IMG/VR virus record: IMGVR_UViG_3300036806_000389
Location: 1-56,537 of that record
Strand: one strand, 5' to 3'
From: a virus
DNA length: 56,537 nt
Shown here: one piece after another, positions 30,042-34,953 of the stretch
Layout of the letters: each line of letters begins with the position of its first letter
How positions within the stretch are numbered: position 1 is the first letter of the stretch
The notes under the pieces: model-generated
The model's input: only the letters and a program-made list of their open reading frames with translations
What the model was told of the DNA's origin: nothing
Databases searched by the model: none
Translations under genes and position numbers: made by a program

Positions 30042-30869
30042 TCAGGCTGCGTCTTCGTCAGCGTCGTCGTCTTCTTCAGCCGAGTCGCCGTCGAGCTCTT
30101 CGAGCACAGGGAAAGCGACGCATCGGCAGTTGTACGGATCGCCGGGGATCGCCTCTTCGTCGTCGACGAGTGGCGGATCGTCCCAGTCGCATTCCTGCCC
30201 GTCGATCTCCGCGTGAGATTCGCGCACGCGCTCGTCACCCGTCGTCGTCCAGACGAATCGGGTCACGCCTGCTGATGTCTGCCGTTCCCGCGTGAGGTGC
30301 CCGTTTAGCGTGAGGACGTCGTCGTGAGCAGCGGTGTCGAGCTTCGACTTGGTTACCTCTAGCCGATCGTCGATTCGGTCCTGCAGTTCGTCAGGTGTAC
30401 GGTCCTCGGAATCGGATAGGAGCTGCACGATCGTGTCGCGCTCGCGAGCTAGGATCTTCTCGACACGCGCCGCGGAGTCGGAGCGCCATGAATCGCGTAG
30501 CCGGTCGAGGTTTGGCTCGTCCCTGATCTCGATGCCGAGTCGTTTGAACTCTTGCTTCGAATGCCGCACGGCCTTTTCGGCTACGCCTGCCGAGGCACGC
30601 AGAATAGTGTCTGTCGAAAAAGAAACTCCGTCGAGCGCGTCGCCGGCTTCTTCTTCAGCCGCATCCGTGCGTTTCGCAAAGTCCGTCAGGCGGCCGCGCA
30701 GCGCGGACCGGACCTTCTTGGCGAACTGCTCCGCTACGCCCCGCAAGGCGATTCTGTACGAAAGGATCGCACCATCGGGGATGCTGGGCGAAAGAGCATG
30801 CCTTTGGGCACGCGACAGCTTTCTGCGAGCTGGTCTCGAGCGCCGCGCTAGACGTGAGCGGACCAACAC
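30042..30869 (-). CDS. Head morphogenesis protein (Mu gpF/SPP1 gp7-like)
   Basis: The C-terminal 75 residues carry the Phage_Mu_F signature: FVWTTTGDERVRESHAEIDG, then DPPLV and GDPYNCRC. The preceding 190 residues are helical and charged. In SPP1 and Mu such proteins are minor capsid proteins associated with the portal. It starts at GTG 30869, overlapping the preceding frame by 22 bases; a later start is possible. Position after the portal is canonical. Confidence 0.8.
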   Translation of the reverse strand: MLVRSRLARRSRPARRKLSRAQRHALSPSIPDGAILSYRIALRGVAEQFAKKVRSALRGRLTDFAKRTDAAEEEAGDALDGVSFSTDTILRASAGVAEKAVRHSKQEFKRLGIEIRDEPNLDRLRDSWRSDSAARVEKILARERDTIVQLLSDSEDRTPDELQDRIDDRLEVTKSKLDTAAHDDVLTLNGHLTRERQTSAGVTRFVWTTTGDERVRESHAEIDGQECDWDDPPLVDDEEAIPGDPYNCRCVAFPVLEELDGDSAEEDDDADEDAA

Positions 30870-31216
30870 CCCGCCGCCGTGCCGCGCTTCACGCCGGTGA
30901 CGATCTGAATGTGCTTCGGAGTCCGCTCTTCGGCGCCATCGCCGTCTCTCTTGGCGAGTTCTCGCACGAGATGCTTGGTCCCGGCGCGATGCGGAAGCAC
31001 CTTCAGGGTCGCAGTTCCGTCGGCCGCGATCGCAGTCACCACGGCGTGGAAGTGCTTGTGCTCGCTGCGGTGTACGATGTCTCCGTGCTTATTCCGCACT
31101 TCGTGCACGAATCGTTTCTCGAGCTTGTATCGCACGACGCGCCCGACCATCTCGGCGAACTCAGTCGTCAGCTTGGCCGGAGCGGGCGCCTGTTCTTCGC
31201 TTTTCGATTCCGGCAT
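30848..31216 (-). CDS. Hypothetical protein, 122 aa
   Basis: ATG 31216 overlaps the portal stop as TGATG. The frame starts MPESKSEEQAPAPAKL. The middle (VGRVVRYKLEKRFVHEVRN, SEHKHFHAVVTAIAADG) looks like a small beta domain with several His residues. The C-terminus has TPKHIQIVTGVKRG. It sits between portal and gpF-like genes. No family recognised; a minor head component is possible. The N-terminal extension of the frame is shadow. Confidence 0.6.
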   Translation of the reverse strand: MPESKSEEQAPAPAKLTTEFAEMVGRVVRYKLEKRFVHEVRNKHGDIVHRSEHKHFHAVVTAIAADGTATLKVLPHRAGTKHLVRELAKRDGDGAEERTPKHIQIVTGVKRGTAAGCWSAHV

Positions 31217-33177
31217 CACGAATCCCTTTCGATGACGGTGCAGCCGCGAGCGATCAGCTCGCCGCGGATCTCGTTCCAAACCTTCGCGACGTCTTTCGAC
31301 ATCCGGCGTTGCTGGTCCGTTTGCGGGGACACGGCGCGGCCGAAGTAGACGACTGTCGCGTCGAGCTTCTTGTCCGGGTTCGCGCGCATCCACTTGCGCA
31401 GCGCGCGCGGAGCTGCGACGCCTTCGATGATGTACTTCGGGTCGTCGATCCACCGAGCTATTTCAGCGGAGGCCTCGATCCATCCGTGCGAATCGCTCAG
31501 CGCGTCGGTGCTACGGATGTCCCGCCGATACCGCTCGCCGGCGCGAGCCGAAGTGGTCGACTTTCCGGTGCGAGGGCCGCCCGCGATGATGGCCCGCTCC
31601 GCTTTGCCGACCACGTCGACGAGGTCTTCGCCCGCGTCCGTCCGTTGCTCGCCGCCGGTTGCCGCGGTGGGCGCCGCCTTGGGCGGCTGAATCGACGCTT
31701 TGACGGCTGCCGCGGCAGCGTTTGCGCCGCCGTTTGCCGGCGCCGGCGGCACTGGGTCCGGCGGGTTCAGCTCGTCTTCGAGGTTCTCCTCGAGCATCTT
31801 CTCGCGCACCTCGCGCCCTTCCTTCGTCAAGGTGATCTCCTCGCCGAACGTCGGACCGCCGAAGCGGGACAGCGCGACTTCTTCGGGCGTCAGGATGCCC
31901 GCATTGACGTACGCCGCGTCGCCGGTGGCCAACGCGAGCCGTCGTGCCCCCTCGTCCTTCGGGCTCTCGCTCCAAAGGTTCGGGAACGTGATCTTGATTG
32001 CACTCGGATCCTTCTGCGCGCGCAGGGCCTTCGTGCGCGTCATCACGCGAACGAGTTTGCGTACCCGCGGGGTGAGGATCAGGTTTTGCTGCGACCGGAT
32101 ACGGCTGTAGAACCAGCGGTAGTCCGCGTCGCCAGTCGCGTTCTCTCCGGCGGGAGATTGCCCGTAGAGGATCGTCGCTGGGATCTGCACTGCCGCGGCG
32201 AGCCGCAGCATGAAGCGGTCGAGCGTCGCAGGGTAGTCGGTGAGCGTGACTTGCTGCCGCTCGAACGACTCGGCGCCGCCCTTCGTCTCGGGATCGCCAG
32301 CGTCGACGACGAGCGCCCGCATGACGCTCCGGTACAGGTCCATCGTCTGCAGACGTGCCTGCAGTGCCGATTCGCCGTTCGCGCCGATGAGCTCGGCGAG
32401 GCCCTGCATCTTGAAGACGGCCTGGTTGCCGTCAGCGAGCAGGATCTCCACCGACTTCCAGCCGGTGTTGAAGGCGCGCAGCGCTTCGAAGGCACGTTGC
32501 AGGACCGATCGGTCGTACCCGAAGTTAGCGATCCGCTCCCAGATTCCGGTAGTCGAACCACCGAACATCAGGAGCCGCGACTCGTGGACCTCCTGGTACT
32601 GGCCGAGCATCGTGTAGGGCGATGCCGAGCCGACGAGGTACGTCCGCGGCCGTCCGAGCTTCGGATCCCCAGCGTCCGTGTACCAGGTCAGCGGGTACAG
32701 AAGCCGCTTGTCGAGCTCGTACAGGTACGAGACGCCGTTCGCGCGCTCCGGGATGAGCTCCTTCGACGCTGGCCTTCCGTCGTCCGCCCCGATGAGCAGC
32801 GCGCCGGCGCCGAACAGCCTTCCCCAGCGGATTGCGTTCGCGAGCTTCTCACGCGCACCGAGCGCCTCGAGCTGATCGGAGAGCTCGGTGTCCTGACCCG
32901 CGTCGCCGAGGTCGACCGAGAAGCCCTCTCGGAGCATCTCGTCGGGCACGATGTCGACCATTCGCTGGGCGAGATCGTCACCGTGATAGATGTTCGAGAG
33001 TTGCTGATCGGACAGGTAGTCGACGCCGCAAAACGCCGTGTAGCTCGTCTTGTCGCGTGGCGTCCCGGCGCCAGTGACCTCGTTCGTCCACGAGTCGAGG
33101 CGCTCGACGAGCACGTTGCGTGCGATCTGGGCGATACGACCGGGCGCTACGCTGCGCAGTGCTTCGACGAGTTTCAC
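31216..33177 (-). CDS. Portal protein (DUF1073) with C-terminal P-loop domain
   Basis: Residues 1-470 are a portal of the DUF1073 type: AFCGVDYLSDQQLSNIYHG, AQRMVDIVPDEMLREGF, IPATILYGQSPAGENATGD, and the tail-end AYVNAGILTPEEVALSRFG. Residues 470-515 form a Pro/Ala/Asn-rich linker. Residues about 525-653 add a compact alpha/beta domain with a Walker A motif (GGPRTGKST, Gly533 to Thr541), then IIEGVAAPRALRKWM and KLDATVVYFGRAVS. It resembles small P-loop kinases and is not part of usual portals. It could serve an NTP-dependent step at the portal vertex or a host-directed function. It overlaps both neighbours (TGATG, ATGA). Confidence 0.8.
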   Translation of the reverse strand: MKLVEALRSVAPGRIAQIARNVLVERLDSWTNEVTGAGTPRDKTSYTAFCGVDYLSDQQLSNIYHGDDLAQRMVDIVPDEMLREGFSVDLGDAGQDTELSDQLEALGAREKLANAIRWGRLFGAGALLIGADDGRPASKELIPERANGVSYLYELDKRLLYPLTWYTDAGDPKLGRPRTYLVGSASPYTMLGQYQEVHESRLLMFGGSTTGIWERIANFGYDRSVLQRAFEALRAFNTGWKSVEILLADGNQAVFKMQGLAELIGANGESALQARLQTMDLYRSVMRALVVDAGDPETKGGAESFERQQVTLTDYPATLDRFMLRLAAAVQIPATILYGQSPAGENATGDADYRWFYSRIRSQQNLILTPRVRKLVRVMTRTKALRAQKDPSAIKITFPNLWSESPKDEGARRLALATGDAAYVNAGILTPEEVALSRFGGPTFGEEITLTKEGREVREKMLEENLEDELNPPDPVPPAPANGGANAAAAAVKASIQPPKAAPTAATGGEQRTDAGEDLVDVVGKAERAIIAGGPRTGKSTTSARAGERYRRDIRSTDALSDSHGWIEASAEIARWIDDPKYIIEGVAAPRALRKWMRANPDKKLDATVVYFGRAVSPQTDQQRRMSKDVAKVWNEIRGELIARGCTVIERDS

Positions 33178-34607
33178 TGTTTTGCGCTCGCCATCTTGAG
33201 CAGCGCTTCCGCCATCGGGTTAGCGCGTCGAGTGAGGGAGTCGTAGGCAGCCGCGAGCGCGTCGACCTCGTCGTCCTGTGGATCGTTCTTGCCGGTGAAG
33301 TGGCAGATCACGCGCACGCAGTCGTCGACCCATGCCGGCGGATTGTCGCCGCCCGGGAGCAACACGTTACCGAGGTTCCACGCCTCAGCGACCGGCTGCG
33401 CTCGCGTGTACTTGTCGGACGACGCTGGCCGCGTCTTGAAGCGCGAACCGATCTTCTTCCGGATGAACTGCTCGCCGCCCTTCTCGGTGCCGCTCGGGTA
33501 CCACCAGATCGGGCCGGGCTCTTTCGTCTCGCGGACGAGCAGCTCGAGGAAGTCGGGCACCTCGCCCTGACGTCTCTCGAAGTGGGTGACGTAGAACTTG
33601 CCGCCGTGGGCGATGATCTTGAACAGCACCGACCAATCGGCGCTCGTCTTGGCCGTGTACGCCAAGTCGATGCCGTAGCCGACGCGGTATCCGACCTTCG
33701 GGAGCTCTGACGGATCGTAGAAGTGGGGCTCGCCGAAGAGCGCGCCGCCGCGCGGGCGCGGTTCGCCCTGGTACAGCGACGCGAATTTGTAGACGTTCGC
33801 GCGACGAATCCGGTCGAGGTACTCGAATCCCCAGACGTCCGGCAGAAGCGGCTGGTCCTCAGCTTCGCCGCTGAGGGCCTTGATGTTCGTGCCGCGCCAT
33901 TCCTCGCGCTTCGAGAACCGGCCAATCGCGTCGTCGGGGTGCCAACGAGCGTGGATCAGGAAAGCGCAGCCGTCAGGCGTGAGGCGCGTGAGGATGTCTT
34001 CGTCGATCGACCGGTAGATCTCTTCGCGCCGCGCCGGGCTCTCCGCGTCTGCGGCGCGACGGAACGGGTCGTCGATGACGATCAGCCTGAAACCGCGGCC
34101 CGTGACTTCGCCACCGATGCCGCGAGCGACGAGGCCGCCGCCCTGCTCGAGCTCCCACTCGTCCTGGCGGTTCGTCTCCCGCGAGAGGGCCAGTCCGCCG
34201 CGGTCCGCGAGCTTCCGGATCGCCCGAGAGTTCTTGTTCGCGAACTTCTGGGTGTGGGTGACGTACGCGACCTCTTCTTCGGGCCACGTCTCGAGATGGG
34301 CCGCGATCGCGTGTCGAAGCGTGAAGGTCTTCCAGTGCCGCACCGGCACCGAGCACCAGTAGAACCGCTGCCCCACGTGCGGGGCGATCGCTGCGTCGAG
34401 CTCGACCGCCAACGGGTCGAGGTGCCTCGGCTCGCGAAGCTGCGGGCTCAGCCGTCGGAAGGTGCCGTAGACGGTTTCAATTGAGCGAGGGCCGCTCGGT
34501 GTCTCCTGGCTTGCCGTCGCCGCGGGACGCTCCTCCCGCTCGGGCTCCGGCAGCGCTCGCGCTATCCGTCTCTCGAGCCTGTCGAGCCTGTCGAGAAATT
34601 CGAGCAT
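33174..34607 (-). CDS. terL: Terminase large subunit
   Basis: The 477-residue protein has ATPase and nuclease domains. Walker B is RLIVIDDPF (Asp179-Asp180). The nuclease acidic residues are Asp314 in YGIDLAY, Asp324 in SADWSVL and the Asp/Glu group in DDEVDALAAA (445-449). The expected Walker A region reads VPVRHWKTFT (87-96): Lys93-Thr94 are present, but the usual Gly before Lys is Trp92. The enzyme packages DNA through the portal and cuts it. The start overlaps the small subunit by 131 bases, and the stop overlaps the portal by ATGA. Confidence 0.85.
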   Translation of the reverse strand: MLEFLDRLDRLERRIARALPEPEREERPAATASQETPSGPRSIETVYGTFRRLSPQLREPRHLDPLAVELDAAIAPHVGQRFYWCSVPVRHWKTFTLRHAIAAHLETWPEEEVAYVTHTQKFANKNSRAIRKLADRGGLALSRETNRQDEWELEQGGGLVARGIGGEVTGRGFRLIVIDDPFRRAADAESPARREEIYRSIDEDILTRLTPDGCAFLIHARWHPDDAIGRFSKREEWRGTNIKALSGEAEDQPLLPDVWGFEYLDRIRRANVYKFASLYQGEPRPRGGALFGEPHFYDPSELPKVGYRVGYGIDLAYTAKTSADWSVLFKIIAHGGKFYVTHFERRQGEVPDFLELLVRETKEPGPIWWYPSGTEKGGEQFIRKKIGSRFKTRPASSDKYTRAQPVAEAWNLGNVLLPGGDNPPAWVDDCVRVICHFTGKNDPQDDEVDALAAAYDSLTRRANPMAEALLKMASAKQ

Positions 34608-34953
34608 CTAGGAGCTTCCAGGACATCGCGACCTCCGAGAGCAGCTTCAGCGCTCCGGCCACCGAGTGAATCGCGTCGGGACTCTTCGGGTCCGCCTGCT
34701 CCCCCGCTTTGCGCAGGAATTCGATGCTCGACTTCAGCGCCCCCGGTATCTCCTCGGCCCACTGAGCTTCGAGGATGGCCTTTTTGGCGCCGACACTGGC
34801 CGCCAGCGTGGTGTCGTCTTCGGGCTCGATGCCCTTCCTCCACCGCTGCAACGTGCGAGAACTTATGCCGTATTTCTGGCATGTCGCCTTGTCGCCAGCG
34901 ACTGTCGCCTCAACGATGATCTTGGCGATCTTCTCGCGCTTCTCGGCTTTCAT
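34477..34953 (-). CDS. terS: Terminase small subunit
   Basis: The N-terminus holds a helix-turn-helix (DKATCQKYGISSRTLQRWRKG, about residues 21-41), as expected for DNA recognition. Helices for oligomerisation follow (AIHSVAGALKLLSEVAMSWK), and then an Ala/Gly-rich tail. It is 158 residues long. It overlaps both the 62-residue gene upstream (ATGA) and terL downstream. The 10-bp repeat array lies about 350 bases upstream and is a candidate binding site. Confidence 0.75.
   Translation of the reverse strand: MKAEKREKIAKIIVEATVAGDKATCQKYGISSRTLQRWRKGIEPEDDTTLAASVGAKKAILEAQWAEEIPGALKSSIEFLRKAGEQADPKSPDAIHSVAGALKLLSEVAMSWKLLDARISRQARQARETDSASAAGARAGGASRGDGKPGDTERPSLN

Follow-up and report, generated by a model that had tools for sequence, protein, structure and literature searches.

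Architecture of the fused portal gene

The DNA analyzed here is the complete 56,537-nucleotide IMG/VR record IMGVR_UViG_3300036806_000389 (hereafter the window). As listed in Table 1, a single minus-strand frame of 653 amino acids with no internal stop codon spans positions 31216 to 33177, and its product consists of a portal body, a low-complexity linker, and a domain with the predicted fold of P-loop kinases (PL). The GTG start codon overlaps the stop codon of the gene for the terminase large subunit (TerL) in the sequence GTGA, and the stop codon overlaps the start of the following gene, as expected for coupled late genes. The portal body matches PF06381 (DUF1073, Phage_portal_3) at residues 59 to 419 (E = 7e-68), and its score of 229 bits against a gathering score of 33.8 places it in this Pfam family; phrog_146 matches residues 25 to 500 (E = 1e-89). 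The C-terminal P-loop domain is what sets the protein apart from other Phage_portal_3/DUF1073 portals (PF06381, phrog_146). The first-pass annotation had described a portal body and a separate P-loop domain within one protein; the intact open reading frame, the PF06381 match, and the kinase fold of the AF2 model bear this out, and its coordinates and residue numbers, including the exact position of the Walker A motif, are correct.

Table 1. Features of the portal locus in the window.
Feature	Position	Strand	Evidence or remark
Fused gene: PF06381 portal, linker, and P-loop kinase-fold domain	31216..33177	-	Intact ORF, 653 aa
Stop codon of the fused gene	31216..31218	-	Overlaps ATG of next gene (TGATG)
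Portal body, residues 1-465	31783..33177	-	Pfam Phage_portal_3 at residues 59-419
Pro/Ala-rich low-complexity linker, residues 471-514	31636..31767	-	Predicted disordered, pLDDT<50
P-loop kinase-fold domain (PL), 139 aa, residues 515-653	31219..31635	-	AF2 model and family alignments
Walker A motif GGPRTGKST, residues 533-541	31555..31581	-	Sequence
Small gene, 122 aa, MPESK..., between fused gene and MuF-like gene	30848..31216	-	Sequence
MuF-like minor head protein, 275 aa	30042..30869	-	In-house profile common to PF04233-positive proteins
TerL, phrog_38, Walker A variant PVRHWKT	33174..34607	-	PHROG and sequence
Putative small terminase subunit, HTH-like, upstream of TerL	34477..34953	-	Position and sequence

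The Walker A motif of the window TerL has a tryptophan where relatives have glycine or serine (PPRHGKS, PPRHSKS); PPGSSKS is a further form among the relatives. The earlier description of this motif as degenerate therefore holds at one position, whereas the Lys-Thr pair and the Walker B motif DDP are kept. A scan of viral contigs with the window TerL protein gave no close relative. The identification of PL as the small terminase subunit was rejected, given the kinase fold of PL and the presence of a separate HTH-containing, TerS-like gene upstream of TerL.

Predicted structure and conserved residues of PL

The AF2 model of residues 521 to 653, for which 71 relatives were aligned, has a pLDDT of 93.9 and a pTM of 0.87. 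The secondary structure elements are predicted in the order b1-a1-b2-a-a-b3-a-b4-a-b5, with the Walker A motif between strand 1 and helix 1 of a five-stranded alpha/beta fold. The best Foldseek matches in the PDB are shikimate kinases, gluconokinase, adenylate kinase, and polynucleotide kinase, with E-values of approximately 2e-4 to 6e-4. Structural superposition with VIA gave gluconokinase (3t61; Z = 10.0, 118 aligned residues, 2.8 Å), adenylate kinase (5x6j; Z = 9.9, 125 aligned residues, 3.3 Å), and polynucleotide kinase (4jt2; Z = 9.1, 122 aligned residues, 3.3 Å). The model confidence together with the Foldseek and VIA matches supports a P-loop kinase fold. The five-stranded fold and the Walker A motif are common to PL and the adenylate, shikimate, gluconate, and polynucleotide kinases, whereas the sequence identity to these enzymes is only approximately 10 to 17%. 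Profile comparison of PL with Escherichia coli adenylate kinase aligns the Walker A motif and strand 2 with a probability of 93%.

In PL, the motif EGVxxxRALRK is found where adenylate kinase has DGFPR, and the LID segment with its arginines is missing; in the model, only approximately eight residues connect strand 4 and the next helix, and an invariant glutamine and a near-invariant methionine occupy the place of the LID. Since the LID arginines are absent, phosphotransfer by PL is uncertain, and its catalytic activity is putative. The adenylate-kinase-fold ribosome-assembly ATPase AK6/Fap7 (Foldseek match 4cw7) has a similar fold and provides a precedent for a kinase fold that serves as an assembly factor; however, it acts in a different complex, and the support for common ancestry with PL does not extend beyond the fold.

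Gly533, Gly538, and Lys539 of the Walker A motif are kept in all 102 non-redundant relatives listed, and Glu585 (of EGV), Arg591, Arg594, Lys595, Gln623, Trp566, and Met626 show no or almost no variation. The search patterns were built around AGGPR[TA]GK and EGVxxxRALR, so that part of the conservation at these sites reflects how the sequences were found; Trp566, Gln623, and Met626 lie outside both patterns. Four relatives that were found via their portals (L108, L112, L113, and L115; L numbers designate related loci) independently keep the motifs, apart from single changes.

PL is not assigned to any family of Pfam, PHROGs, or NCBIfam, and the matches are below the cut-off or weak and generic for P-loop proteins. 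The best Pfam match is AAA_18, with 16 bits against a cut-off of 29.4, and phrog_800 matched four PL members weakly. The adenylate kinase models do not match the window domain. Of 72 members, 5 match the zeta-toxin model PF06414 (best E = 0.034), and the window domain is not one of them. The anti-phage defense models of PADLOC gave no match for the window domain and weak matches to P-loop proteins for other members (best E = 7e-06). PL is a real domain beyond a chance motif, as the family of 102 sequences and the confidence of the model indicate.

PL in close relatives of the portal

A scan with the portal body yielded ten related contigs besides the window (L005, L033, and L108 to L115; L033 and L107 are the same contig). 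PL is fused in frame to the portal in three of them (L005, L033, and L108), as in the window. It is encoded by a separate gene that starts within the portal stop codon in two others (L112, GCATGA; L113, CCGTGA); in L115, the gene is more distant and follows MuF. The remaining four (L109, L110, L111, and L114) have no PL domain, and the domain is therefore dispensable. Two of these PL-less relatives (L109:3992-6394 and L111:2189-4687) carry instead a coiled-coil-like C-terminal extension of approximately 340 to 360 residues, which comes after the segment DDNGRFASS or a similar one.

The fused portals form one clade in the portal tree, with support values of 81/94 for all four and 98/97 for three of them. 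The other fusion contigs are 53 to 60% identical to the window, and the P-loop domains of the fusion proteins are 47 to 59% identical to each other. Identity in the linker is 25 to 33%, compared with 47 to 66% in the flanking domains. Among the window, L005, and L033, the P-loop domain has a dN of approximately 0.4 and a dS of approximately 1.0 to 1.4, which indicates purifying selection. Four divergent contigs with the in-frame fusion, together with this selection, mark this as an old, selected fusion and not an artifact.

The separate genes of L112 and L113 are what an assembly or annotation artifact that joined two genes would predict, and a separate gene with an intervening stop codon in relatives had been named as grounds for discarding the fusion. 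Such a gene literally exists in these two contigs; however, the fusion stands despite the split, because it is in frame in three other contigs that group with the window in one clade. A frameshift or assembly error was rejected, since independent contigs carry the identical in-frame arrangement; GC3 is continuous at 0.80 to 0.90 from the portal through the linker to the P-loop domain and shows no sign of a frameshift. With four independent contigs and purifying selection also against it, the chance of an artifact is practically negligible. The fusion would most simply have been made from two adjacent genes.

Distribution of the PL family

A viral scan with the window PL domain alone gave no relatives, and a homologue from MW202476 was needed as the query. 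This homologue (UOF77383.1 of MW202476.1, Caudoviricetes sp., Manatee Spring), found by tblastn, is the only one in INPHARED, where 1,150 records have a portal match. It is clearly homologous to the window PL (37.5% identity, E = 3e-12), but it is encoded by a separate gene that overlaps a DUF4055 portal gene, in contrast to the fusion in the window. This gene (L002:5950-6399) is annotated as "ADP-ribosylation factoR-binding proteiN", for which no support was found and which appears to be a mis-annotation.

From IMG/VR, the best 80 of 118 relatives in one scan and the best 80 of 83 in another were taken, and the merged set comprises at least 183 loci in at least 102 non-redundant groups. Nearly all of these relatives are in uncultivated phages, and the family is spread over many environmental phages that are unrelated to each other. 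No PL was found in a plasmid scan. Two scans of genome contigs gave none and a single MAG contig (L116), respectively, and the PL domain of the latter is at least 95% identical to that of viral contigs.

Fusion partners and genomic context

Neighbor profiles were built from the PL neighborhoods and then named through PHROGs and Pfam. Because the loci were found by their PL sequence, and only a few by their portal sequence, adjacency to head genes was mostly not selected for. Fusions of PL to portal, MuF, scaffold or scaffold-like proteins, or TerL account for 15 of the 102 listed relatives. The commonest class is fusion within MuF minor head proteins (6 of 102), whose partners have PF04233 in both of the two that were scanned and phrog_324 in L163. 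Four of the listed relatives are fused to the C-terminus of a portal. In another four, PL is N-terminal to a scaffold-like protein; head scaffolding phrog_206 matches three of these (L149, L151, and L158; 3e-38 to 7e-27), and L143 is assigned tentatively from its close PL kinship and coiled-coil appearance. One fusion (L055, a single contig) has PL N-terminal to a phrog_38 TerL (2e-58), which keeps its own intact Walker A motif, APRGHGKT.

Elsewhere among the 102 listed loci, PL is encoded separately. In 40, the distance to a portal, MuF, or TerL frame is at most 300 nucleotides; in 13, PL adjoins the C3 gene (at the portal position after TerL); and in 11, a head gene is located within 3 kb. 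At the remaining 23 loci, no head gene was recognized within 3 kb, and some of these are near genes for tail sheath, nucleotide pyrophosphohydrolase, or RtcB-like proteins. The portals found together with PL belong to at least four annotated families (PF06381, DUF4055, phrog_113, and phrog_156). The C3 family (L010, L013, L046, L050, L062, and others) consists of proteins of approximately 470 residues encoded directly after TerL; it has no Pfam or PHROG match and is possibly an undescribed portal family.

In the PL tree, in which few columns leave the deep forks weak, the portal-fused (95/94), MuF-fused (99/98), and scaffold-fused (100/99) members form separate clades, and the TerL-fused member is placed elsewhere. 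These separate clades and the TerL event indicate four or more independent origins of the association. The MuF fusions are nested, in the order MuF N-terminal segment, PL, and MuF core, and in L102, L159, L164, and L179 the PL gene directly precedes an intact MuF gene whose product has an N-terminus like that segment. The nested position of PL requires more than a lost stop codon or read-through.

Further domains were observed in proteins of these loci. The MuF fusions of L083, L099, and L163 also end in an HExxH metalloprotease-like region (for example, LHEWGH, VHEQLH, or AHEEIH). Three PF06381 portals of approximately 780 residues (L069:5378-7714, L076:3005-5329, and L094:5258-7624) are fused to a second, different NTPase, in which an HTH-like segment and a sigma-54-activator-type AAA+ ATPase with its lid (PF00158 and PF25601 for L069) form the C-terminus; the PL gene is the next recognized gene downstream in each case. 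A DUF4055-type portal (L049:8392-10455) has a C-terminal ParB/sulfiredoxin-like region, recognized by eye from the motif ADGHHR, and PL is directly upstream.

Discussion

The window gene is a genuine DUF1073 portal fused to a compact, LID-less domain of the P-loop kinase fold. PL is normally a small gene of the head and DNA-packaging module, and independent fusions have joined it to portal, MuF, scaffold, and TerL. The last two do their work ahead of packaging or in the course of it, and neither is ordinary virion cargo; scaffold is presented in this way in PMC12005531. Since assembly and packaging, and not a fate as cargo, are what the four partners share, a role in assembly or packaging is favored, and we give close to an even chance to the explanation as a whole, in which PL is an NTP-dependent head-assembly or packaging factor needed at the portal vertex. 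Approximately twelve PL domains would hang from the portal C-termini on flexible tethers of approximately 45 residues, on the lumenal side to judge from portal architecture. In T7, the C-terminal regions of the portal form the lumenal crown inside the capsid (PMC6702177), so that the PL copies of the window should face the capsid interior. PL may bind and turn over NTP in procapsid assembly or the initiation of DNA packaging; alternatively, it may phosphorylate a phosphate-bearing ligand held by the conserved arginine pair. Fusion to any protein that reaches the portal vertex would guarantee its delivery there. Counting against an assembly factor are the missing LID arginines, the close relatives that do not have PL, the 23 of 102 listed loci with no recognized head gene within 3 kb, the single contig behind the TerL fusion, and the ease with which neighboring genes fuse; moreover, domains fused to MuF or portals are usually read as injected effectors (PMC5512222, PMC9503650).

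This last point leads to the explanation that PL is enzymatic cargo, packed in the head via portal or MuF and either injected or active in the capsid on a host nucleotide, RNA, or signaling molecule. ART, Nudix, 2H, PBECR, and zeta-like kinase domains on MuF and/or portal proteins are described in PMC5512222 and PMC9503650, and PL is likewise found fused to or beside portal or MuF. MuF fusions are the commonest class, several of their partners bear a C-terminal HExxH metalloprotease-like region, and portal C-termini face the lumen (PMC6702177). On the other hand, portals are not ejected, the TerL (L055) and scaffold (L149, L151, and L158) partners normally leave or never enter the virion, and PL lies inside the N-terminal region of MuF and not at the usual C-terminal position of effectors. 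We regard cargo as the main rival, less likely than an assembly or packaging factor. An ordinary small nucleotide or metabolite kinase (a moron) in the late operon, with fusions as tolerated accidents of adjacency, would agree with the predicted fold of NMP, shikimate, gluconate, and polynucleotide kinases, with the loci where no head gene was recognized nearby, and with the losses in close relatives. It is improbable, because approximately two thirds of the listed loci are fused to or directly beside head or packaging genes, compared with a roughly estimated 15% at random, and because fusions have been inherited over long divergence, the insertion in MuF is nested, and the LID is absent. The first-pass annotation had suggested that the extra domain might gate the portal in an NTP-dependent manner and had linked it to the window TerL; gating, or compensation for weak ATPase activity of TerL, would fit the position of PL on the portal and the tryptophan in that TerL. 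The link is not supported, and compensation was rejected, since the TerL Walker A motif is canonical in the fusion phage L033 (PPQHGKT) and in the PL-fused TerL of L055. Relatives with the same portal family have PL split off or missing, and PL also accompanies several unrelated portal families, TerL, and scaffold, which speaks against a gate specific to the window portal; this explanation is very improbable.

Enzymes on portals are of an already known kind. In PMC5512222 and PMC9503650, MuF- and portal-fused "polyvalent" or packaged effectors similarly bring an accessory enzymatic domain, with genes beside terminase and portal, and include a zeta-toxin-like kinase on MuF, whereas PL fails the zeta model; the passages on such effectors consulted there do not name the PL family. 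PL differs from them as a distinct, smaller, LID-less P-loop family that in most cases has a gene of its own and that also occurs on TerL and scaffold. As far as shown by the literature and libraries searched, this P-loop family, its scaffold and TerL fusions, and its breadth are undescribed. In packaging models, TerL is the one motor NTPase, and the portal, scaffold, and minor head proteins are passive. It is conceivable, and we propose it tentatively, that PL is a widespread, phage-specific second conserved NTPase or kinase of the packaging apparatus besides TerL, one that accompanies unrelated portals and reaches the vertex through its fusion partners. A conserved P-loop family repeatedly fused to portal, MuF, scaffold, and TerL would point to an unrecognized nucleotide-dependent step at the vertex or, alternatively, to a new kind of head-packaged kinase, and either meaning can be tested on a domain of 130 residues.
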